Positions 1-27,048 of a stretch of DNA of 27,048 nucleotides are shown here, in pieces. The DNA comes from a virus. The notes under the pieces were generated by a model, which saw only the letters and a program-made list of their open reading frames with translations, was not told the DNA's origin and did no database searches. The stretch covers positions 1-27,048 of the IMG/VR virus record IMGVR_UViG_3300038960_000106. One strand, written 5' to 3'. The translations under genes and the position numbers were made by a program. How positions within the stretch are numbered: the first letter of the stretch is position 1; every line of letters starts with the position of its first letter.

Positions 1-1843
1 CGTTTTCTGTCGCTGGATCTACTGGTGCAGGTGGTTGTGGTGGCGGTAAAATGCCATCAATGTTCTTTACATCAAGTGCATCATACATTCTTCGGTATGC
101 CTCGTACTGATTATGTATTTGTGGTGCAGCTTGTGCTAGTTGCAACTGTGTTTGTGCCAATGACAGACGTTGTGACATAGAAAATATGTTAGGATCTGAC
201 ACTGGAAGTATATCCACACGACCATCAAAGTCATTTTGCATGATTTGTGGTGCAACATTTCCTACAAAATACGGATAAGGCACTGGATTTTCCGAAAAAA
301 TCTCTGCTAACATACGAAATTCTTGTTTTTGTGCGTAGTGCAAACGCTTGTGTATGCTAGAAATAATCTTAGAACCTTGTTCTATTAACGCAACTGTAGT
401 TCCAACTGGTGCTTGTGAGTTAACATCTGCTATTTTTGCATCAGCAACTTGTGCAAAACGTCTACCAGAGTCAACAACCACACCTAAAAGCTGTGCGAGT
501 GTCGCAGATGGCTCTTTGTACGGAAGGGGAATGATAGAGTTTTTCAAATCGCCACCTGGGACATCTATATCTCTAAACTCACCTGGGTTCAAAGGCTCGT
601 CATCATTTCGGATCCTAACACCTCTTGCCTTAAATCCAGCTGGTAAGTTTGATAATGTGCCCGCATCTATTAGCTGTCTCAAAATAGATGTGGCTGCACG
701 AGATAATCCACCTATTGTATGTAATAAACCAAAGCCATAAAAGCCAAAACCTGGTAAAAACTTAAAATGAACAAAGTATTGTCTCTTTCTTTTTAACGGA
801 TCTTGTTCTCTAAAGTTTCTAACCACTGATAAAACTTGATTTGAATTTTGATCGATGGTGACAATATAAGGGAGCATAATACCCGAAGGCTGCCCTTGAC
901 TATCCATATCTTCAAAGCCTTCCAAGTCCAAGTCAACATGGACTTCAAGTAAGGTGTAACTGTCGTCTGAGTAATTAGGATGTAATCCTTGAAGGTCATC
1001 AGTAGTTTCTTGGATAGCTCCTTCGTCCTCTCCAGAATCTGTTTTAGATAATTCAACATCTTTATACACTCCCGCAACTTGTAGTTTACGGATATCGTTA
1101 TAACTCATTCGCACCATGTGTGTAACTCGCTCTGCCGTTCTAATATCAGAAGCAGAGTACGGAACTATTAAATCTTCTGCTGGTACAAACTTAGATACCG
1201 CTCTTTGTTTCGTAGGATCAAAGTACACTTTCTTAAATGTAGAACCAGTGAGTGGTAAATAAAACAACATCTGGTCTGTGTCTTGATCGTATTCCTCCAT
1301 GACTTCAGTAATCTGATAGTTCATGTAATCTTTAATTCTTTGTGCTTGATCTTCTGTTTCTTTTGTAGCAACACCAAGTATCTGTGTTTTTACTGGACCA
1401 CCACTCGGTAACATTTCTTTGTATGCTTGTGATTGAAACTGTGTTGTTGCCTCTGACAATAGTGGATGTGTTACACCACTTGCACCAAGAAACGGATCAC
1501 TTCTGTCCTCGTAGTTGATGCCAAGCAAGTTTAAACCCTTGGCGATTGCTTCTTCCCAGTCTTGTCTTGACTCTAAATCTTCTTTTACTTTTGATTGTAG
1601 ATCAGATGCAATAGAAGCCAACACACCTTCTTCTATAACTTCTGCAAGGTTAGCATCGTGAATGTATGGTTCTGCCATGACTGGGATTTGTTCTTCACCC
1701 ATGTCAAGTTCTATACCCTCTGGTAGCTCATCAACATCATCTTGTATTTGTAAAGCGAGTTGTTCTTCCATGGGCACAGGTTCACCACCTGCTCCCATAG
1801 CTTTTTCGACCATGCCTGCAATGTCTCTTGGTTGTTCTGCCAT
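1..1843 (-). CDS. Phage portal protein (C-terminal end cut by window edge)
   Basis: An uninterrupted minus-strand frame of 614 codons runs off the left edge, so the end is missing. The ATG at 1843 follows TTAGGAGAAAGGCAAGTTA, a good ribosome binding site, and overlaps the stop of the upstream gene as TAATG. The N-terminus is acidic. It is followed by a region reading PLTGSTFKKVYFDPTKQR, then FVPAEDLIVPY and a VTHMVRMSYND segment; I associate this pattern with P22-type portal proteins of marine phages. The visible part ends in a proline-rich stretch (PPPQPPAP). A portal forms the dodecameric ring at one capsid vertex through which the terminase pumps DNA. It lies two genes after the large terminase in a coupled operon, which fits. 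Portal is confident; the P22-type assignment rests on remembered similarity. Confidence 0.85.
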   Translation of the reverse strand, partial: MAEQPRDIAGMVEKAMGAGGEPVPMEEQLALQIQDDVDELPEGIELDMGEEQIPVMAEPYIHDANLAEVIEEGVLASIASDLQSKVKEDLESRQDWEEAIAKGLNLLGINYEDRSDPFLGASGVTHPLLSEATTQFQSQAYKEMLPSGGPVKTQILGVATKETEDQAQRIKDYMNYQITEVMEEYDQDTDQMLFYLPLTGSTFKKVYFDPTKQRAVSKFVPAEDLIVPYSASDIRTAERVTHMVRMSYNDIRKLQVAGVYKDVELSKTDSGEDEGAIQETTDDLQGLHPNYSDDSYTLLEVHVDLDLEGFEDMDSQGQPSGIMLPYIVTIDQNSNQVLSVVRNFREQDPLKRKRQYFVHFKFLPGFGFYGFGLLHTIGGLSRAATSILRQLIDAGTLSNLPAGFKARGVRIRNDDEPLNPGEFRDIDVPGGDLKNSIIPLPYKEPSATLAQLLGVVVDSGRRFAQVADAKIADVNSQAPVGTTVALIEQGSKIISSIHKRLHYAQKQEFRMLAEIFSENPVPYPYFVGNVAPQIMQNDFDGRVDILPVSDPNIFSMSQRLSLAQTQLQLAQAAPQIHNQYEAYRRMYDALDVKNIDGILPPPQPPAPVDPATEN

Positions 1844-4800
1844 TAACTTGCCTTTCTCCTAAGATCTATATAACCACCTTTTGCTCTAAAAGTAAATTTA
1901 CCTTCTGCTAATTTTCTTCCTTTTGATCCAGGTGATAGATCAATAACAAATTGTACTGGTCTGTTCAACTGTGCTCTTCTAGTATTATCCGCAGAAACCA
2001 TTTCAAATATTCTATCTCTGTCAACTGTTGCACCAGCGTCTTCAAATCTTTTTGCCACGGTATCTAACGTACTACCATACGTTCCTAATCCAAAAGTTTT
2101 CTTAAGTCCTTGTACAGTGGTATCCTCTTTTGCTCTTGATGTCCACTGATCTTCTCTGTGTGGAACGACTATACCAGCAATAGGCTCTTTATATAGCTCT
2201 TCAAATCTAGGGTCTGTTAATTTATGAATTAAAGATTGTAATAGACCTCTTGATGTCTGTGCCATAGTAGCATTATTCGGTGATCTAGTGTATTTCTTGT
2301 TATCGTTAATGTGAGCATATAATCTCATAGCTGCTTCTCTTAATTCACTAGGAGCATAATTGTATTCTTTTGCTTTTTTTCCGATTTGGTCGTATAGTTT
2401 CTTAAATCTCCTATCTATTTCTTTGTTGTTATCTGCACCGACTTCATTGTCTTTCATTTGTTTTTCAAGAGCAGGTAGTTGTTTTTCAAGATTTGTTTTT
2501 TGCTTTAATATTTTTTCTGCTCTAACTTTATCACCCTCTAAGAAACCTTTGTAACTAGGTGTAAGAAATAATTTATACACACTTGTTAAACTTGGACGGT
2601 ATCCACTAAAACTGCTACCAGGATTGTAATCATTTTCCTCATACGGCACTGGAGCCAATCTTAACTGTATTTGGCGAAGTCGATCTGCCTCTACGCCTGT
2701 GGGTAAAGTTCTAATAAACCTATTCAAAAGAGAATCATCTTGTTCTAATCTTTTCTCTTTTTTCTCTCGCATACCTCCTTGTACACCAGAATACGCATAT
2801 ACCTTTTCATTTCTCAACATAGATCCGATTAAAAGTTTTTTCTTCAAAGCATCTTTATTATCTAATCCAAGTTGTTTTGAGTATTTATTAACAGTCTGTG
2901 CTCCTATTGTTCGTTGTTTTTGAGTGTCTATCTCCTCCATATACTCTTTATAATTACCATCTTCTGGAACAAAACCTATGCTATCTGATACGTTATCTAT
3001 GATTCTAGACAATTCTTTTTCTATATCTTTTTTTACTTTTGGTGGTATTAAGTTTTCTATATCTGACAAAATTTTATCATATTTATGATTAAAATATGCA
3101 GGAAATCGTCCTATTGCTCTGTCTCGTGCTCCTTCTCTTAGAGCACTTTCGTCAGCGTGTCTGTCTTGTATTGCATCAAAATCTATTGAAGAAAGCTCTG
3201 TTTTAAATTTATTAGCCATGTATGATCCGATTTCATGTCTTATAACATTCAAGGCTTGTTCATTAACGGCTTCGTTTACACCTCTTTCTAAAGTAGATTG
3301 CATTGTTTTAATTATTGCATCTGTTAGATCTTCTTCACTTATTGAGCCACGAAAACCAAAATCAGAGTCTGCTTCTTGTCTAAAAGCACTAGTAGAATCT
3401 GCTAAGAGAGACGTTGTTTCTGAATAATTATAACCCTTTTCTTGTAAGTTTTGATCTAGTAGTGCCTCAAAAAAACCCTCTGGACTGCTTATATAAGAAT
3501 CTTTTATTTCTCTTTCTTCCTTGCCATGAGCGTACATGAGACCCGCTCTTCTAAAATCTCTAGTTTCTCCTACATCACTAGTTTGTTTACCAAGATCGCT
3601 ATAACTATCACCTGGCATCCCTTGATAGTTTGATCTAAGAGGCATGTGACCCACTAGAGTTTTTACAAGAGTTGATTGTCCTCGTTTCTCATTATACTCT
3701 ATTGGAAAACCAAGTTGACTTATATAAGCCTCGTTTTGATCTCCAGTTAAATTATAATCATTAAGACGAAGTTTTCCTTGTAAATTATATTTAGGAGCGG
3801 CTGCTGCAACTTTTTTAGTTCTGTCAGAAACTGGTGTTCTTAATTTAGTACGTCCTAATTCTTTTAAAATTATTGCCGCTAATCTATCTGGTGCTGGTTT
3901 AGCAAACTCGCCATTCTGTGCCATTTGAAAACCATCAAACTCCCTCATGGCTTCTTGACGAGGATCATTAGCAAATTGTGTTCCCTCAAATCCATCCATG
4001 GCTTCGAGACCTTCTATAAAGTTTTCTGCCATCGTGCTATAGTCAGTATCTGTAAACAAAATACTTTCTAGCATAGACTCTGCTTTATTTAGTCTTTCAG
4101 TGTCTACTTGTCTGCCACTAACTGATCCTTCCTCTTTTTGTTTAGCGTATGCTTTTACATAACTCATAACATTTTTAGGTAAAGTTTTTCTTAAAGTTTT
4201 CAAATCATCTAGAGTTACATTTTGTATCTTAGATATCTCCATGGGAGCAGTTCTAGTGGTTTGAAATCTTTCTATCTGATTATTTATTTTTTCTATCTCT
4301 TCTTTTGCTAGATTTACTTTCTTTTCTGCTTCTTGAAAAAGTTTTCTTTTTCTTGTTAAATCTTGATTAAATTGTGATGGAGCGTCATCATCTGACATTT
4401 CTTGATCCATAGCATCAAGAACTCTAATTTTATTTTTCTCACTTGGTGTAAATAATCTATAACTACTAGGACTATCTCTGCCTGTAAAATCGCCCATAGT
4501 TGTGTTAAGAGTTCTTATTGGTCGTTTGTCCGTGGGTCTCGCTCCACCAGAAAAAGTTCTGGTCAGATATGGATCGTTACCTCTCAAAGCCGTATCAATA
4601 GCACCAGAAAATAATTCTGGTATTCCACCATACTCTACTGGTGTGCCATACGCATATTCTGGTTTTGCAAAATCTAATAAGTTTTCATAAGTTCTGGTTA
4701 CGTCTGATTGTATCTCTTCAACAATAGCATATAGTTTACCATCTGCTCCTCTTACAATCATAGCTCTCGTATAACCAAAACCTTTGTTGTAGTAGTCGTG

Positions 4801-7020
4801 AGGTAAATTTAATTCTTTCTCTCCAACTAAATTCTCTTCTATTGTTTTATCGTTCAGTTTAGTTTTTTGTTGAAGTGCGTTTATAACTGGACTGTTTGTT
4901 AAAGAACCAGCTTTCAATGATTCTTGGTCTGGGTTCACTGCAACAACACTTATATTGTCAATTTCAAAGGCTTTGCCACTCCCAAGTCGTTGAGCATCTG
5001 GATCTCTGTTTTGTACAATTTTTATTTTTTGATTACCTCTAGCGTCAGTTTGACCTGTAGGTTGTTCCACATTAATTGGTTTACCAGTCACTGTGGCAAA
5101 AGAGCTAAATATCCTTTGTCCAGAATAACCCTCTTCAGAATCAATCGTGCCTGGAGGAGCTAAACTTGGATCTGCTAGTATCTCTCCAGCACTAAGGGCA
5201 AAATTTCTAAAAGGTCCGTTTGTTCTTCTGTTCATACCACTTCTAACTTCTAATCTAACGGTTGGACGCATTTGGTCAAACTCATAGATAATCTCTTCCA
5301 TGGTTTTTGTTTCGTTTTGATTTCTTATAAGGTATTCTTCTAGTCCAGAGATAAACGCTTCACCACCTCTGTTGTGAATAATTAAATCACCTCGTTCATT
5401 TGGTGCATCAAAAACTGTCCCCATCGATTTAATCTTTTTAGGTATGGTAGTTTTAACTGCTATATCTTTAATATTAGGGATAGACTCATAGTCTATTCTA
5501 CCATCTTCTGTTTTACCTGCCGCTTTCACTGCTTGACCAAATTCTTTTCCTTTTCCTTGTATTGGTATGTACTTGACTTGGTCTTGAATTGATTCTGTGT
5601 ATTGTTCCTTTCCAAGAAGACCAACAGAACCCTCCCTTCTACGCTCTTGTTTTCTTAACTCATCATAAACTTCAGAAACTTTTACTGGGTTTTTCATGCC
5701 AAACTTATCATCCGCTGCTAATTTAATTAACTTAATTCTTAATGGAGATACGACTGGATCTTCTGGATCAGTAAATCTTTCTTTGTTTTTGGCTTTGTTA
5801 AATTCTTGATTAATAAAATTTTTTACAAACTGAGGATCTGTAGTAAAACCTGCGTCTTGATCTTGTTTTACAATTTCTTGTGCTTTTTGCTCTATGGCTT
5901 TTAATTCTTCTTCTGCTATCTTCTGCACAGATGGATTGCCAACAGAACCACCTTCAAGATCTTTGCTAAAAAACGTCTGCTCTTCGTCAATGTTTGGATC
6001 AGTATCTTTCGTAATCGATAAGTTACCATCCACCTTTTGTTGTGTTGTTAGTTCTGTGCCAGTTTGACCAACGGCTTCATTCATCAATGTCTCAGCCGTG
6101 CCTGGGGGTACGTCTTTTGCTCTGTATTTGGCAAAACTAGGTCCGTACAAAGAAGCGGCAGTTTGCATAGCTAGTTGTTGAGAAGGTGGTAACATGCCTC
6201 CAGGTCCCATGGTGTCACCAATCAAACCTGCAATCCCAGGTCCTTGACGAAATGCTTCGATGGTCGTGGTCATTCCTCCACCCATCGTGCCACCAAGAAC
6301 CACGCCTTCTAATAATCTGTCGGCAATTTGCTCACCAGTGTACTCTCCACCAGTCAAGGCAGTCGAACCAACGACCACGCCCTCTTGCAATCCTTCGGTT
6401 CCACCCTCAAACGCCACAGATTTACCAATTCGTCTACCAATTTCTTTTGCAGCATCAATTTTACCCGCTTCACCGAGCTTTTTTATCAGTTCCTTACCAG
6501 TAATTGTTAGTAATTCGTCTCTTGGAATCACTCTTCCAGCGCCAAATCTGTCCAAAAGTGCTATAATTGTACCCGCTCCAATAGCCACAGAGTCGTTATA
6601 ACTGCCAGTTTTTTGCTCCATTTCCTCGGCAACTTCACCAGTTCCCACGATTCCAGAGCCTAAAATGGTCGCTCCACCTATCAAAGCTGCAGCTGGTACA
6701 CTAAAAGGTGCAGTCAGAGCAGATGCCAAACCACCACCAAGTGCAATACCACTTGTCGCTATATTTTCACCAGTTTTCTCGGCAACCCAACCAATCGCAT
6801 CACTCAAACCACCTTGTCGGTAGGCTTCACGAAGTCCCATGGTGTATTCTGGTTGATAGTTACCCTCTCTTATGTCCTTGTCTTGTTGTGCAACAATCTC
6901 TTGTCCATAATTAAAAAGAGATTCAATCCCAGTTCGGGAACCAATAACCTCAAGACCTTTACCAAAAAGTCTTTGTGCTTGGTCTATGCTGTATGCAAAT
7001 GACGAATCTCTTGTTGCCAT
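1843..7020 (-). CDS. Giant (1725-aa) polyvalent/internal virion-like protein
   Basis: This very long leftward gene sits between the terminase and portal genes, with TAATG overlaps at both ends; its start is preceded by AGGATC. Residues about 85-130 and 235-252 are glycine/alanine-rich and hydrophobic. They alternate with amphipathic stretches such as FEGGTEGLQEGVVVG, a layout seen in phage internal or DNA-ejection proteins. Residues about 769-773 read EIQSD, after a strand reading GYTRAMIVRGADGKLYAIVE. This EIQSD signature recurs in large polyvalent proteins of marine phages. The remainder is hydrophilic, with charged helical stretches near residues 920-950 and 1570-1650. It probably travels in the virion and may be ejected with the DNA; no catalytic residues can be assigned. 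The C-terminus ends in lysine/arginine-rich sequence (YIDLRRKAS). Confidence 0.7.
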   Translation of the reverse strand: MATRDSSFAYSIDQAQRLFGKGLEVIGSRTGIESLFNYGQEIVAQQDKDIREGNYQPEYTMGLREAYRQGGLSDAIGWVAEKTGENIATSGIALGGGLASALTAPFSVPAAALIGGATILGSGIVGTGEVAEEMEQKTGSYNDSVAIGAGTIIALLDRFGAGRVIPRDELLTITGKELIKKLGEAGKIDAAKEIGRRIGKSVAFEGGTEGLQEGVVVGSTALTGGEYTGEQIADRLLEGVVLGGTMGGGMTTTIEAFRQGPGIAGLIGDTMGPGGMLPPSQQLAMQTAASLYGPSFAKYRAKDVPPGTAETLMNEAVGQTGTELTTQQKVDGNLSITKDTDPNIDEEQTFFSKDLEGGSVGNPSVQKIAEEELKAIEQKAQEIVKQDQDAGFTTDPQFVKNFINQEFNKAKNKERFTDPEDPVVSPLRIKLIKLAADDKFGMKNPVKVSEVYDELRKQERRREGSVGLLGKEQYTESIQDQVKYIPIQGKGKEFGQAVKAAGKTEDGRIDYESIPNIKDIAVKTTIPKKIKSMGTVFDAPNERGDLIIHNRGGEAFISGLEEYLIRNQNETKTMEEIIYEFDQMRPTVRLEVRSGMNRRTNGPFRNFALSAGEILADPSLAPPGTIDSEEGYSGQRIFSSFATVTGKPINVEQPTGQTDARGNQKIKIVQNRDPDAQRLGSGKAFEIDNISVVAVNPDQESLKAGSLTNSPVINALQQKTKLNDKTIEENLVGEKELNLPHDYYNKGFGYTRAMIVRGADGKLYAIVEEIQSDVTRTYENLLDFAKPEYAYGTPVEYGGIPELFSGAIDTALRGNDPYLTRTFSGGARPTDKRPIRTLNTTMGDFTGRDSPSSYRLFTPSEKNKIRVLDAMDQEMSDDDAPSQFNQDLTRKRKLFQEAEKKVNLAKEEIEKINNQIERFQTTRTAPMEISKIQNVTLDDLKTLRKTLPKNVMSYVKAYAKQKEEGSVSGRQVDTERLNKAESMLESILFTDTDYSTMAENFIEGLEAMDGFEGTQFANDPRQEAMREFDGFQMAQNGEFAKPAPDRLAAIILKELGRTKLRTPVSDRTKKVAAAAPKYNLQGKLRLNDYNLTGDQNEAYISQLGFPIEYNEKRGQSTLVKTLVGHMPLRSNYQGMPGDSYSDLGKQTSDVGETRDFRRAGLMYAHGKEEREIKDSYISSPEGFFEALLDQNLQEKGYNYSETTSLLADSTSAFRQEADSDFGFRGSISEEDLTDAIIKTMQSTLERGVNEAVNEQALNVIRHEIGSYMANKFKTELSSIDFDAIQDRHADESALREGARDRAIGRFPAYFNHKYDKILSDIENLIPPKVKKDIEKELSRIIDNVSDSIGFVPEDGNYKEYMEEIDTQKQRTIGAQTVNKYSKQLGLDNKDALKKKLLIGSMLRNEKVYAYSGVQGGMREKKEKRLEQDDSLLNRFIRTLPTGVEADRLRQIQLRLAPVPYEENDYNPGSSFSGYRPSLTSVYKLFLTPSYKGFLEGDKVRAEKILKQKTNLEKQLPALEKQMKDNEVGADNNKEIDRRFKKLYDQIGKKAKEYNYAPSELREAAMRLYAHINDNKKYTRSPNNATMAQTSRGLLQSLIHKLTDPRFEELYKEPIAGIVVPHREDQWTSRAKEDTTVQGLKKTFGLGTYGSTLDTVAKRFEDAGATVDRDRIFEMVSADNTRRAQLNRPVQFVIDLSPGSKGRKLAEGKFTFRAKGGYIDLRRKAS

Positions 7021-7145
7021 TATGTGATCCTAGTTACCCTTTTTTTGCCTGAAGCCAGTATATCAGAAAATCTGTTCTTAACCAGTCTTCCTTTTCTAAT
7101 TGGTTTTTTGTTTAACTTTTTTCTAATTTTAAGAAGTCTAGTCAT
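7020..7145 (-). CDS. Small basic protein, 41 aa, between terL and the giant gene
   Basis: This short frame fills the whole gap between terL and the 1725-aa gene. Its ATG overlaps the terL stop (TGATG) and its TAA overlaps the next ATG (TAATG), so it has no intergenic space on either side. The product starts MTRLLKIRKKL and ends KKRVTRIT. Roughly 40% of residues are Lys or Arg and it has no cysteine, suggesting nucleic-acid binding or a connector-like accessory role. I recognise no family. The exact tiling is the main evidence that it is translated; it could instead act mainly as a translational coupling element. Confidence 0.6.
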   Translation of the reverse strand: MTRLLKIRKKLNKKPIRKGRLVKNRFSDILASGKKRVTRIT

Positions 7146-8623
7146 CAATAATATTCCCTTTTACTTCTTGGATACCAGTCTTCGCCTTCGTCTTCTCCGT
7201 CCAGTGCTATAAACCCACCTTGTCTAAATCGCATAACTGCCATTGTCATACTATCACAATAATCGTCATGGTCTCCGTTTGGAAAAGATGCCACTTCTTC
7301 TATTACATCTTCTGCAAACTTCTCTCCACTAGGATACCACACTTTTCCCGATTCGAAAATAGGCGATACAATGTGCATCCTCGTGGTTTTGTCTAAGTTA
7401 CCCGCCTTTCGTCTTCCAGGACTGAATGTCAGAACTGGTAGGTTTTGTAACCTTAACTCGTCTGCCAAGGGTTGTCCACTTGCTTTTGCCTCGATTAACA
7501 TCATGTCTGGTTCCCAGTATTCGTTTTCTTCTATCGCTATCTCTTTCAACTCTGGAAAACTCCAACGACCTTTCTTCGCATCTAACATTATCAAATGTTG
7601 TTCGCCATTCTTTTTTGGCTCAAATACACCCCAAGTTGTGATAGCAGAATAGTCTGCCGTCTCTTTTTTACTGTAGGCAGTATCGTAACTTTGCAGAATA
7701 TAATCTAATCTTGGCACATCTTTTTCTTCCCACGGAGTCCACCACTCCCTTTTTATCATCGCAGTTTCTTCAGATGTAGGATTCTGCTGCCACTGTGCGT
7801 TCCATTTCATAGGTGACAGTGATGCCTTGACTTTTAACAACTCGTCCTTGTTCCAAAATTCAGGCCACAAGATCTTATCATTCGGTAAAATCGCTGGGAA
7901 CTCCACGATCTCCCATTGATCTGCCATACTATCCTTTGCTTGTGCCTGTAATAATCTGCCTGTCAGATCCTTCTTTGACCATCTTGTTTGCACAATGATG
8001 ATGGTTCCCCCAGGTTGTAATCTCTGTCTCGGACCTGATGTGTACCACTCGTATGTATTATCATAAGCAGTCGTGGACAGTGCATCTTGTTCCGAGTGTG
8101 GATCATCAATAATCAACAAGTCTGCACCACGACCAGTCATCGCTGCTCCAACGCCTGCTGCAAAATACTCACCACCTTGGCTAGTCTCCCATCGACCCGC
8201 GGCTTGACTGTCTTGCTTCAAGTCCGTGTCTGGAAAAACTTCCGTGTACACTGGATCGGCAATCAAGTCCCTAACCTTACGACCAAACCTCACGGCAAGT
8301 TCTGTATTCATCGTGGCTTGAATAATCTTTAACTTTGGATTACGGCCCAAGAACCACGAGGGCATGAGATAAGATGCCATCTCTGACTTCGAATGTCTGG
8401 GTGGCATGTTTACGATAAGTCTTTTGAGCTTTCCTTGTGCGATTAGCTCCAATTTTTCTGCAATGATTTTATGGTGTCGTCCAACGATAAAATTTTCATA
8501 TACATGTTGAGCATAAGCTAGAAAATTTTTTTGAGCTATATCGCGGGTGTCCAGTTTATTTTTCTGTTGCTCAAGCAGAAATACTTCTTGTAACACCTCT
8601 TTAGGTAAAGCATCTAGGTTCAT
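7145..8623 (-). CDS. terL: Terminase large subunit (packaging ATPase/nuclease)
   Basis: This is the motor that cuts concatemeric DNA and translocates it into the prohead. Counting from the ATG at 8623 (492 aa), the Walker A-like segment MPPRHSKSE is at about residues 73-81 and Walker B (LLIIDDPH) at about 169-176. A coupling segment IIVQTRW follows. The C-terminal RNase H-like nuclease shows YDTAYSKKETADYS (acidic D near 314), MLIEAKASGQ and a final HDDYCDSM acidic cluster. Length is typical. An in-frame TTG at 8629 would add two residues; no strong ribosome binding site decides between them. It heads the leftward structural operon and overlaps the next ORF as TGATG. The small subunit is not adjacent but lies near 14.7-15.2 kb. 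Confidence 0.93.
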   Translation of the reverse strand: MNLDALPKEVLQEVFLLEQQKNKLDTRDIAQKNFLAYAQHVYENFIVGRHHKIIAEKLELIAQGKLKRLIVNMPPRHSKSEMASYLMPSWFLGRNPKLKIIQATMNTELAVRFGRKVRDLIADPVYTEVFPDTDLKQDSQAAGRWETSQGGEYFAAGVGAAMTGRGADLLIIDDPHSEQDALSTTAYDNTYEWYTSGPRQRLQPGGTIIIVQTRWSKKDLTGRLLQAQAKDSMADQWEIVEFPAILPNDKILWPEFWNKDELLKVKASLSPMKWNAQWQQNPTSEETAMIKREWWTPWEEKDVPRLDYILQSYDTAYSKKETADYSAITTWGVFEPKKNGEQHLIMLDAKKGRWSFPELKEIAIEENEYWEPDMMLIEAKASGQPLADELRLQNLPVLTFSPGRRKAGNLDKTTRMHIVSPIFESGKVWYPSGEKFAEDVIEEVASFPNGDHDDYCDSMTMAVMRFRQGGFIALDGEDEGEDWYPRSKREYY

Positions 8624-8661
8624 GCCCAAACGATAATATATTCAAATGAATTTATCAAGCC

Positions 8662-13318: not shown

Positions 13319-13527
13319 TGCTTAAAACAATAGAAGATGCCGAAAAAGAATTTCAAGAAAAATTATATAATCTTAGAAATTCAATTACCTATCAAAAACT
13401 ATGTATAGTTTGTTCAAAAATCATGGAAATAAAAATACATAAACAAGGTAATAGCAAATCTAGAAAAACTTGCAGTAATACTTGTAGGTCAAGATATAAC
13501 AGACACAAGGACAAATATAATGCTTAA
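13315..13527 (+). CDS. Small zinc-ribbon-like protein, 70 aa
   Basis: The start overlaps the previous stop (ATGA). An N-terminal helix (MMLKTIEDAEKEFQEKLYNLRNS) is followed by CIVC and then CSNTC in the context TCSNTCRSRYNRHKDKYNA. The two cysteine pairs, C-x2-C and C-x3-C, with a basic tail resemble short phage zinc-ribbon proteins that bind nucleic acid. Its last 8 bases overlap the start of the methyltransferase, so expression is coupled to it; it could supply a regulatory factor for it. Confidence 0.65.
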   Translation: MMLKTIEDAEKEFQEKLYNLRNSITYQKLCIVCSKIMEIKIHKQGNSKSRKTCSNTCRSRYNRHKDKYNA

Positions 13528-14623
13528 ACACTTAGATTTATGTAGTGGTATTGGTGGCTTTGCCGTGGGTTTTTCCATGGCAAAGTTATCCGAGCCTATC
13601 GCTTTTTGCGACACAGACAAGTTTTGTCAGAAAGTTCTTGCCAAAAACTTTCCAGGAATTCCAATCTATGATGACGTAAAGGAGATCGCAGATGACCCAA
13701 CAAGATTTATTTCAGAACGACCCGATATCCTCACCTCTGGATATCCATGCCAACCCTTCTCAACAAGTGGCAAAAGGGGAGGCACAGAAGACCCTCGCCA
13801 CATCTTTCCGTACTTGCATAAACTTATTAAACAAATCAGACCCACTTATTGTGTTTTCGAAAATGTTTATGGACACCTCTCATTGGGACTTGACGAGGTA
13901 TTGTTTGCAATGGAAAGCATCAACTACCACACGAGGACATTTGTACTTCCGTCTAGTGCAATCGGAGCGAGACACAAACGAGACAGATTGTGGATCATCT
14001 GTAGAAACTTGGGCGACCCCGACAACTATGGATTCCCTACCACCGAGGAGTGCAGAAGCAACCAAGAAATTGCAAGAGGGTGCAAGGAAGGGTCGAAAGA
14101 GACCGAGCAACTTGAGGGAACAAGTCGATCCGAAGACTATGGAGATGTATCCGACCCCCACGACCAAGGGTTTTGGACACGCCTCGGAGGGACAGACAAT
14201 GATCTTCAGAAAGAAAGTGGAGAGAGGGGAACTCACAGAGGCAGAAGCACAAGCCATGATGAACGGAGTGACCTTGAGACCACCACGAATGGAAGAGTGG
14301 AAGTTTCCAACACCAAATTCGGGATTGAAGAAACACAGTTACAACGGCAACAACGATTACTACAAGAACCGAGAGGAGAAGGGCAGACAGATGGATCTTG
14401 CTCAAAAGATGTATCAAATCGAGGGAGATGCAAGACTGAACTGCGATTGGACGGAGTGGTTGATGGGGTATCCTATTGGTTGGACGAGCCTAGAGGAGTC
14501 CCAAGAATTATCTCAAACCAACCCGACAGAGCCAACAGACTAAAAGCATTGGGTAATGCTATTGTTCCACAAAATGCAAAGTTAATTGGATTAGCAATCA
14601 AGAAAGAGTTGACTTCTAAATGA
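13520..14623 (+). CDS. DNA (cytosine-5-)-methyltransferase, 367 aa
   Basis: Transfers a methyl group from S-adenosylmethionine to cytosine C5. All main motifs are visible: motif I DLCSGIGGF (residues 6-14), motif IV GYPCQPFS (74-81, catalytic C77), motif VI ENV (114-116), motif VIII GARHKRDRLWI (149-159) and a final RLKALGNAIVPQ (340-351). Between about 165 and 310 is a low-complexity Gly/Arg/Glu/Thr-rich stretch in the position of the target recognition domain. The start follows AAGGACAAATATA and overlaps the previous gene. It lacks an obvious partner nuclease, so it is probably an orphan enzyme protecting phage DNA. A second, out-of-frame 283-codon gene is nested inside it (13692-14543); that overlap may explain the odd composition of the middle section. 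Confidence 0.9.
   Translation: MLKHLDLCSGIGGFAVGFSMAKLSEPIAFCDTDKFCQKVLAKNFPGIPIYDDVKEIADDPTRFISERPDILTSGYPCQPFSTSGKRGGTEDPRHIFPYLHKLIKQIRPTYCVFENVYGHLSLGLDEVLFAMESINYHTRTFVLPSSAIGARHKRDRLWIICRNLGDPDNYGFPTTEECRSNQEIARGCKEGSKETEQLEGTSRSEDYGDVSDPHDQGFWTRLGGTDNDLQKESGERGTHRGRSTSHDERSDLETTTNGRVEVSNTKFGIEETQLQRQQRLLQEPRGEGQTDGSCSKDVSNRGRCKTELRLDGVVDGVSYWLDEPRGVPRIISNQPDRANRLKALGNAIVPQNAKLIGLAIKKELTSK
13692..14543 (+). CDS. Overprinted gene nested in the methyltransferase, 283 aa
   Basis: An uninterrupted 283-codon frame lies in the +1 frame entirely inside the methyltransferase gene. Its ATG follows AAAGGAG by exactly 7 bases, an excellent ribosome binding site, though one also constrained by the other frame. 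Its protein is not random-looking. It has FSKMFMDTSHWDLTRYCLQWKAS (residues about 55-77), RGHLYFRLV, repeated PTPT/PTPN elements (WATPTT at 107-112, YPTPTTKG at 153-160, FPTPNSG at 205-211) and EWLMGYPIGWT (255-265). I recall these Trp/Pro signatures from phage proteins next to, or fused as C-terminal parts of, C5 methyltransferases. Three cases remain open: a true second product, an alternative C-terminus joined by frameshifting, or a conserved by-product of methyltransferase sequence. Function unknown. Confidence 0.6.
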   Translation: MTQQDLFQNDPISSPLDIHANPSQQVAKGEAQKTLATSFRTCINLLNKSDPLIVFSKMFMDTSHWDLTRYCLQWKASTTTRGHLYFRLVQSERDTNETDCGSSVETWATPTTMDSLPPRSAEATKKLQEGARKGRKRPSNLREQVDPKTMEMYPTPTTKGFGHASEGQTMIFRKKVERGELTEAEAQAMMNGVTLRPPRMEEWKFPTPNSGLKKHSYNGNNDYYKNREEKGRQMDLAQKMYQIEGDARLNCDWTEWLMGYPIGWTSLEESQELSQTNPTEPTD

Positions 14624-14667: not shown

Positions 14668-15159
14668 CTATTTGCCCAAGTCGGAGAGAGTCCCCACCCC
14701 ATTACTCTCTTCGACTACTTCATATTCTCCATCAAATGCAGAGGGGTAATTCTTTCTTATTTCTGCGAGACGACCAACGATTTCTTCACGAGAGAGTTTG
14801 TCTAGGTTATGAGTTACATTAGTTTCCCTACGATCAACGGCAAGACCACCGAGGTTAGACCTATATTTTTCTGCATTGACTGCCGCAGAATATTGACCTG
14901 CCTCCTCGGCTCCCTTAGAAAGGTTCGCAAACCTTTTCAACTGACCCATCAAAGTTACTCCGTATTTCCTTTCGTAATTATCACGGAGTTCTTTGATGTG
15001 TTCAACCACCAGAGGAAAATCTTTGCCATTGAGGAGCAGACTTGCAGTCTTTCTTGCTTGACCTTCAGAATAACCTGCTTGTCTAGCACATTCAGAATTA
15101 GAATGGGTTCCTTCTACAATAAGTCTAGCAAAAGTTTTTTGTCGATTAGTCAATGGCAT
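14668..15159 (-). CDS. terS: Terminase small subunit, 163 aa
   Basis: The minus-strand product opens MPLTNRQKTFARLIVEGTHSNSECARQAGYSEGQARKTAS, the typical start of Terminase_2-type small subunits (L-T-x-R/K-Q-x-x-F, then a helix-turn-helix with A/G-G-Y-S). That domain binds the packaging-start site on phage DNA; the C-terminal part (REEIVGRLAEIRKNYP) would contact the large subunit. An upstream in-frame ATG at 15240 would add 27 residues without similarity, so the ATG at 15159 is chosen, although no strong ribosome binding site is seen for either. The gene stands alone between rightward genes, about 6 kb from terL, an unusual separation. Confidence 0.85.
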   Translation of the reverse strand: MPLTNRQKTFARLIVEGTHSNSECARQAGYSEGQARKTASLLLNGKDFPLVVEHIKELRDNYERKYGVTLMGQLKRFANLSKGAEEAGQYSAAVNAEKYRSNLGGLAVDRRETNVTHNLDKLSREEIVGRLAEIRKNYPSAFDGEYEVVEESNGVGTLSDLGK

Positions 15160-15229
15160 AAGCAGATAGTAGTGTTTCTCCCATATTTTATCAATAAAAA
15201 AAGGAAAAAAAATGACGCGGTCGGCTTTG

Positions 15230-15328
15230 AAGTGTAGCAAGTGTTACCAAAGTGTAGCAAGAATAAATAAAAAAACACAGTAAAAACAACAAACTATTTT
15301 TGATGCTACAGATGCTACAGATGCTACA
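15230..15328. repeat. Iteron-like repeats (AGTGTAGCAA and GATGCTACA)
   Basis: Three 10-bp units read AGTGTAGCAA, GTGTTACCAA, AGTGTAGCAA (15231-15260), the outer two identical. About 40 bp on, GATGCTACA repeats three times in tandem (15302-15328). TGTAGC and GCTACA are reverse complements, so one protein could bind both clusters in opposite orientation. A very AT-rich tract (15333-15395) adjoins. It is the intergenic region between leftward terS and the rightward early operon; an origin, packaging-recognition or operator role is possible. The rest of 15160-15465 holds a promoter and no credible gene. Confidence 0.65.
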
Positions 15329-26420: not shown

Positions 26421-26593
26421 CTGACAGGTTTACAATATGCAGTGATTTTGCCTATTTTACCATCTGGTAGTGGGACATCGGGCTGATTGTTCAAACGTCT
26501 GGCAAAATACAAACAACTGTTAATATTTTCAAATCTTTGTGTCTGATCTATCACTCTTTCGTTGAGCATGAAGATCAGAAGAAACTCTATCAT
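26411..26593 (-). CDS. Hypothetical protein, 60 aa
   Basis: The minus-strand product (MIEFLLIFMLNERVIDQTQRFENINSCLYFARRLNNQP...) starts with a short hydrophobic helix, then a conserved-looking SCLYFARRLNNQPDVPLPDGKIGK and ends TAYCKPVRKK. The pattern C-L-Y-F-A-x-R-L-N-x-Q-P ... T-A-Y-C is one I recall from small marine phage proteins near structural genes. Its start overlaps the upstream gene's stop (ATGA), so the two are co-translated. Function unknown; it converges tail-to-tail with the polymerase gene. Confidence 0.6.
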   Translation of the reverse strand: MIEFLLIFMLNERVIDQTQRFENINSCLYFARRLNNQPDVPLPDGKIGKITAYCKPVRKK

Positions 26594-27048
26594 TCATCTT
26601 TTGCCTTCCAAAAATACTCGTCTGTGTCTCCGAGTCTGAACTTCTGTCCGTTCTCAACTTGATATATCTCTGTGCTAACTTTGAAGTCTGGTTGTAGTGG
26701 TTTGTCTGGTGTCAGTGAATTGTCGTACACTCTCATTCTGTTGTTTGGATACAGACAGAATTGATTATTTTCTAGTTCTAGTAAGTTAAACGATTTGTGT
26801 TCTGCTGGTTTCTCACTGGTTGAGTAATCTATTGTGTCTATGCTTTCGTGATAGTTATCAAGAGTACAAACGTAAGATCCTTTCACGATACCATGGTCTC
26901 TTGTATAAACCTCAAAGTCCATAGATCCTATAAACTGTTTGCTAACTGCCACCACCCCATAGTCCATGCAATTCCAAAACTGGAGATTATAAAGATCCAT
27001 ATCTGGAGTCGGGGTCTGTGGTTCAACAGTAAAAGCACTAATAGGAAG
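26590..27048 (-). CDS. Hypothetical protein, N-terminus beyond window
   Basis: The frame is open to the right edge, upstream of the ATG at 27000. The extra 16 codons read LPISAFTVEPQTPTPD before MDLYNLQFWNC, and no ribosome binding site precedes 27000, so the true start probably lies outside. The body is beta-rich (YGVVAVSKQFIGSMDFEVYTRDHGIVKG) and contains CLYPNNRMRVYDNSLTPD, ending DTDEYFWKAKDE. A Pro-rich N-terminal linker before a globular part would fit a virion component, but no family is recognised. It belongs to a leftward operon continuing past the window. Confidence 0.65.
   Translation of the reverse strand, partial: LPISAFTVEPQTPTPDMDLYNLQFWNCMDYGVVAVSKQFIGSMDFEVYTRDHGIVKGSYVCTLDNYHESIDTIDYSTSEKPAEHKSFNLLELENNQFCLYPNNRMRVYDNSLTPDKPLQPDFKVSTEIYQVENGQKFRLGDTDEYFWKAKDE

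Follow-up and report, generated by a model that had tools for sequence, protein, structure and literature searches.

The small domain of C5-cytosine DNA methyltransferases (C5-MTases) comprises a variable region and motif IX, and two of these enzymes, M.EcoHK31I and M.AquI, are made of two polypeptides (PMC3404938). In M.EcoHK31I (YGGCCR), motif IX is found in the smaller polypeptide and motifs I to VIII and X in the larger one (Lee, Kam and Shaw 1995, NAR 23:103, as cited in PMC3404938), and the predicted recognition domain has been placed in the larger subunit (PMC3404938). In M.AquI (CYCGRG), which has an alpha and a beta chain, the smaller chain carries the distal variable region and motifs IX and X (Karreman and de Waard 1990, as cited in PMC3404938). 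If a C5-MTase is divided between motif VIII and the recognition domain, the break coincides with the domain boundary (PMC5944983). The two-polypeptide kind of C5-MTase has been known since 1995.

Here, we describe a C5-MTase locus in a 27,048-nt stretch of DNA (the window), which is part of a 38,398-base virus record of a marine phage. The MTase ORF, designated alpha, and a second ORF in its +1 frame, designated beta, lie on the same DNA, and their frames overlap over ~280 codons (Table 1). By layout, the locus is of the M.EcoHK31I-like kind. First, the large chain has motifs I to VIII and X and is without motif IX. Second, beta is encoded within the large gene in another frame, as is also said of the small polypeptide of M.EcoHK31I. 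There are differences, too. The constrained recognition region is in beta, unlike in M.EcoHK31I, where the recognition domain is assigned to the larger subunit, and beta, at 283 aa, is longer than the M.EcoHK31I small chain, reportedly of 176 aa. Also relevant to this comparison, no restriction enzyme was seen among the window ORFs scanned with PHROGs.

M.AquI is likewise a C5-MTase in two chains, and six of the related loci described below resemble its motif layout. However, its alpha chain has motifs I to VIII only and its beta chain motifs IX and X, whereas motif X of the window locus stays in alpha and the two chains are encoded, for most of their length, by the same DNA in two frames. The canonical single-chain enzyme, M.HhaI, has a catalytic domain homologous to alpha but, unlike in the window locus, its recognition domain and motif IX belong to that same chain and are read in one frame. 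Among phage genes, the same +1 position is taken by Paenibacillus phage Shelly gp56 ("g55 internal gene"), which matches phrog_1008 as beta does, and, inside the MTase gene, by Escherichia phage K1G ORF30 ("Mte8-like protein"). The phrog_1008 relatives carry no label other than DNA methyltransferase, Mte8-like, or hypothetical, none of which states a subunit role, and many records leave the protein unannotated. In the literature searched, we found no description of this overlap in phages, nor of the breadth of the overprint or of a recognition region in beta. What seems to be new is this breadth, the selection evidence for a recognition region in beta, and a natural series of frame arrangements.

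Layout of the locus

A preliminary description of this DNA had reported that a 367-aa MTase frame coexists with a 283-codon +1 frame, had placed the sequence AAAGGAG 7 nt before the ATG of the latter, and had quoted several motifs from its translation. Both ORFs, the AAAGGAG, and the motifs were all found in the sequence (Table 1). When the MTase codons were redrawn synonymously according to the genome codon usage in 20,000 trials, the longest +1 open run had a mean length of 68 codons and a maximum of 237, compared to 287 observed. Permuting the codons of the MTase gene gave a +1 run that reached 283 codons with P = 0.00075 (0.075%). This second test is conservative because the gene's own codons have already been shaped by the overlap. 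Both frames were open in 80 out of 80 near relatives, the best 80 matches in IMG/VR, most of which are 65 to 100% identical to the window locus. In many near relatives, L017 and L015 among them, beta ends ~11 codons earlier and the codons that follow still resemble the longer form.

The surroundings of the locus have some features of their own. The genes for the large (7145-8629, minus strand) and small (14668-15240, minus strand) terminase subunits are ~6 kb apart, and plus-strand genes, including the MTase gene, lie between them. A 1725-aa ORF without a PHROG match (1843-7020, minus strand) adjoins the terminase large subunit gene, and a phage-encoded ferredoxin (phrog_3704, E 3e-61) is found at 26590-27000 on the minus strand.

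Table 1. Features of the overlapping MTase locus, in window coordinates
Feature	Position	Strand	Basis or remarks
Alpha: C5-cytosine DNA methyltransferase, motifs I-VIII and X	13520..14623	+	367 aa, ATG start
Alpha motif I (DLCSGIGG, AdoMet)	13535..13558	+	Conserved columns, alpha alignment A5
Beta Shine-Dalgarno (SD) sequence AAAGGAG; core AAGGAG 13679-13684	13678..13684	+	AAGGAG invariant, 54/54 loci
Beta: +1-frame overprinted protein, putative recognition region and motif IX-like element	13692..14543	+	283 aa
Beta start codon	13692..13694	+	ATG 40/54, GTG 14/54 loci
Alpha motif IV (GYPCQPFS, catalytic Cys)	13739..13762	+	G74, P76, C77, Q78, P79, S81 invariant
Alpha motif VI (ENV)	13859..13867	+	E114, N115, V116 invariant
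Alpha motif VIII (SAIGARHKRDRLWI)	13958..13999	+	A150, R154, R156 invariant
Beta TP element 1 (WATPTTMD)	14010..14033	+	T109 at least 90% conserved
VIII-X interval: beta constrained, alpha near-neutral and modelled unstructured	14051..14500	+	Alpha codons 178-327; substitution classes, pLDDT
Beta PTP element 2 (YPTPT)	14148..14162	+	T155, P156 nearly invariant in alignment A1
Beta PTP element 3 (FPTPN)	14304..14318	+	Sequence; alignment A1
Beta motif IX-like element (LNCDWTEWLMGYPIGWT)	14436..14486	+	L249, N250, E255, M258, G259, P261 invariant, 72 sequences
Alpha motif X (GNAIVP)	14552..14569	+	G345, N346 invariant; helices modelled with high confidence

Catalytic motifs of alpha

Alpha matches phrog_363 (E 5.6e-60) and, over residues 3 to 185, the C5-MTase family PF00145 (E 1.3e-35), with no PF00145 match beyond residue 185. 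The hallmarks of the family, motifs I, IV (PCQ), VI (ENV), VIII, and X, are all present, and a phmmer comparison with M.HhaI gave an E value of 1.3e-15. Rows from annotated records were left out of the alignments used for structure modelling. In the resulting model of alpha, residues 1 to 165 are mostly of high confidence, as is the motif X helix, and the catalytic part matches the large domain of M.HhaI (Foldseek E 8e-13); the model is without a small domain. Two segments, residues 177 to 274 and 282 to 318, have a pLDDT below 50, and it is in this part of the chain (177 to 318) that the small domain of a C5-MTase is expected. By all three measures, the PF00145 match, pLDDT, and selection (see below), a folded recognition region with motif IX is absent between motifs VIII and X of alpha.

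Start of beta and its ribosome-binding site

The constancy of the AAGGAG core across 54 loci extends to two wobble positions of alpha, where AAG is always used and not AAA, and GAG and not GAA. None of the 54 distinct aligned loci had a non-start codon at the beta start position. The signal is also found farther afield: among 186 distant loci, 75 had SD matches of at least 6 nt, compared to ~4 expected, and this enrichment supports internal initiation as a general feature.

These observations bear on another way of reading the +1 frame that the preliminary description had raised, namely that programmed frameshifting from alpha into the +1 frame would produce an MTase with an alternative C terminus. 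Such a product is compatible with the ~280 codons over which the frames overlap and with the existence of single-frame fusions of the catalytic part and the recognition region (L287 and L290). However, beta is marked by its conserved AAGGAG and an always-valid start codon, a stop codon lies in the beta frame just upstream of it, and it has a conserved N-terminal part of its own that overlaps the catalytic motifs. Furthermore, the frameshift product of the 270 loci with motif X in the alpha frame would lack this motif. Because the SD sequence is invariant and the start codon is always there, frameshifting is disfavored, and we regard it as very unlikely.

Selection on the two frames

Substitution patterns differ along the gene. 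Outside the overlap, the third codon position of the MTase is the most variable (diversity of 0.35 to 0.44). Within MTase codons ~178 to 327, the most variable position is the first, which is the third position of the +1 frame (0.26 to 0.42, depending on the subwindow), and diversity at the MTase third position is low (0.06 to 0.12). The relative rates of the substitution classes between motifs VIII and X were 3.63 for changes that alter alpha and are silent in beta, 0.18 for changes that are silent in alpha and alter beta, and 5.36 for changes silent in both. Beta-silent changes were therefore ~20 times faster than alpha-silent ones, and omega in this region was roughly 0.03 in the +1 frame, as against 0.7 in the MTase frame; since the sequence pairs are not independent, these selection figures are descriptive. 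Changes that create a stop codon in the beta frame were frequent outside the overlap and did not occur within it. Inverted selection in the same direction was found in 8 other MTase clusters outside the clade of the window, some of which contained few changes. In the catalytic part of the overlap, on the other hand, constraint is mainly on the MTase frame and milder on the +1 frame.

In the VIII-X interval, then, it is beta that bears the coding constraint, and alpha does little more than remain an open frame. The preliminary description had expected both proteins to be constrained, and selection does act in both frames, but in this interval almost all of the constraint falls on the +1 frame, leaving the MTase frame nearly free to vary. 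It had also named two observations that would count against a +1 gene, a frame routinely broken by stops and a lack of purifying selection. What we found was a frame open in all 80 near relatives and under strong purifying selection. Beta is a genuine protein under strong selection, equipped with a conserved ribosome-binding site and start codon of its own.

The same data speak to the idea that the +1 ORF is untranslated and its conservation a shadow of MTase conservation, for which it can be said that +1 tblastn matches coincide with MTase genes in nearly all records inspected, as those of a shadow would. However, the +1 frame is conserved between motifs VIII and X and the MTase frame hardly at all; in that interval, changes silent in alpha are suppressed and no stop codon arises in the +1 frame. 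The substitution classes in the clade of the window and in the 8 others contradict such an artefact, and we give it practically no credence.

Sequence and model of beta

Beta matches phrog_1008, a family described only as DNA methyltransferase (E 1.9e-22; residues 14 to 268 against profile positions 41 to 282 of 329), as do 10 out of 10 members of beta alignment A1. The preliminary description had linked the +1 motifs to phage proteins in the neighborhood of MTases, and this link holds. The most conserved part of beta is the C-terminal LNPxWVEWLMGFPxGWT, an element that resembles canonical motif IX (RRLTPRECARLMGF in L177). When the beta profile was compared with canonical MTases, the best local alignment fell on motif IX, at an E value (0.47) that is not significant. 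In the six loci that resemble M.AquI, LNPxWVEWLMGFP directly precedes an in-frame motif X.

Other searches with beta gave little. Pfam and NCBIfam yielded no usable match, and searches of PDB sequences with the beta profile or with beta of L111 gave no matches. A Pfam hit to Glycos_trans_3N (PF02885; E 0.029), below the cut-off, was attributed to chance. Modelled alone, beta has low confidence (mean pLDDT of 57, pTM of 0.20), and Foldseek found no significant structural match to this model in the PDB. A poor model of beta alone is compatible with a chain that depends on a partner and proves nothing.

The low-confidence segment of alpha (residues 177 to 318), its M.HhaI-like catalytic part, and the motif IX-like end of beta ahead of motif X together lead us to assign the large and small domains to the two chains. 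Alpha would be the large catalytic domain, with AdoMet binding, the catalytic Cys, and the C-terminal helix, and beta, judging from sequence, would be the small domain, with target recognition and motif IX.

Distribution and arrangements of the two frames

By tblastn, the +1 protein was found in phages of Paenibacillus, Lacticaseibacillus, Bacteroides, and Escherichia, and a second query added phages of Klebsiella, Salmonella, Pseudomonas, Xanthomonas, Vibrio, and Mycobacterium. The match sits +1 to an MTase in all but a few of the records inspected. In bacterial genomes, all of the best 80 loci, from several phyla, were +1 overprints. The locus searches used short motifs and the best 80 matches per scan, and the 306 loci scored form a redundant set in which the clade of the window is overrepresented. 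All of those that could be judged have the +1 protein overlying a C5-MTase catalytic region, or a layout derived from this one. The overprint is an old arrangement, found across phages and prophages of many bacterial phyla, and is usually unannotated.

Several arrangements were apparent. First, in 270 of the 306 loci the catalytic part and motif X are in one ORF, accompanied by the +1 protein. Another 23 are without one part, nearly all of them at contig ends, and L277, counted separately, is without the catalytic part. Second, in seven loci, six of them distinct (L102, L111, L270, L285, L289, and L291; L276 is the same as L111), the alpha ORF terminates beyond motif VIII and the beta ORF is extended to include motif X. 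Third, L090 (2331-3314) and L165 (2724-3752) have an alpha stop codon between motifs VIII and X and an intact beta, so that motif X, unless translated from a start of its own, is lost. Fourth, L287 (1877-2959) and L290 (2284-3543) have the catalytic motifs, the PTP region, and motifs IX and X in one ORF, and only the N-terminal half of beta is left in the +1 frame. These two could be real fusions or the outcome of single indels, biological or from sequencing, in a locus of the L111 type. Finally, L266 (542-2082) is in three pieces: a catalytic ORF, a +1 beta ORF, and a separate downstream motif X ORF. A candidate in-frame fusion, L194, was set aside as its frames are disrupted and it is probably a decayed prophage copy.

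Two further loci are of interest. Mycobacterium phage Rhynn gp83 (L170, 2032-2745) is a much shorter version, with a 237-aa MTase gene whose +1 frame has retained a single WPTPTAS element together with EWLMGFPDGWT. The chromosome of a Roseovarius metagenome-assembled genome (OX638333.1) has five MTase/+1 copies (L144 to L148) with the same match at different positions, which suggests a multicopy prophage or an assembly effect.

The arrangements help to decide whether beta belongs to the enzyme at all. It may be a separate accessory protein, overprinted on the MTase gene and acting outside the enzyme, either as a modulator of the MTase or in an unrelated job such as anti-restriction. In favor of this, beta alone has no confident fold or PDB match, and its N-terminal half, which overlaps the catalytic region, persists as a separate ORF in L287 and L290. 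However, no stand-alone +1 protein was found in the 306 loci (best 80 matches per scan): wherever the contig allowed judgement, a MTase catalytic region was adjacent. In addition, no recognition region that is conserved or foldable is present in the alpha frame, and in the six distinct loci with a short alpha, beta is continuous with motif X and alpha is without everything after motif VIII. We consider an accessory protein improbable.

A probable two-subunit enzyme from two frames

We think it very probable that the locus encodes a two-subunit C5-cytosine DNA methyltransferase, both subunits of which come from the same DNA in two frames. The suggestion in the preliminary description of a second, overprinted protein, possibly a target-recognition partner, is supported by the open frame, selection, and the conserved start. 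In the proposed mechanism, ribosomes would initiate translation of alpha at its start codon and, as separate events on the same mRNA, translation of beta at its internal SD sequence and ATG. The two chains would then associate, neither presumably being active alone, and beta would read the target in the major groove so that alpha may methylate the flipped cytosine at a specific site. For the phage, the most likely use would be protection of its DNA from host restriction.

The same may apply widely. On balance, we favor the view that a broad class of phage C5-MTases annotated as single proteins are obligate two-chain enzymes with the entire small domain in the +1 frame. On this view, the overprint is ancient and separates the evolution of specificity, in one frame, from that of catalysis, in the other. 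The two genes share a long stretch of the same strand, their overlap is ancient and very widespread, and selection is clear in both frames, which makes the locus suitable for calibrating methods that detect overlapping genes. It also raises a testable question, whether recognition and catalysis of one enzyme can stay in two frames of one DNA. If the two-chain view is true, many phage MTases have been annotated as complete although the other frame conceals half of the enzyme. The annotated chain expressed alone would look inactive, and specificity predictions made from it would use the wrong sequence.
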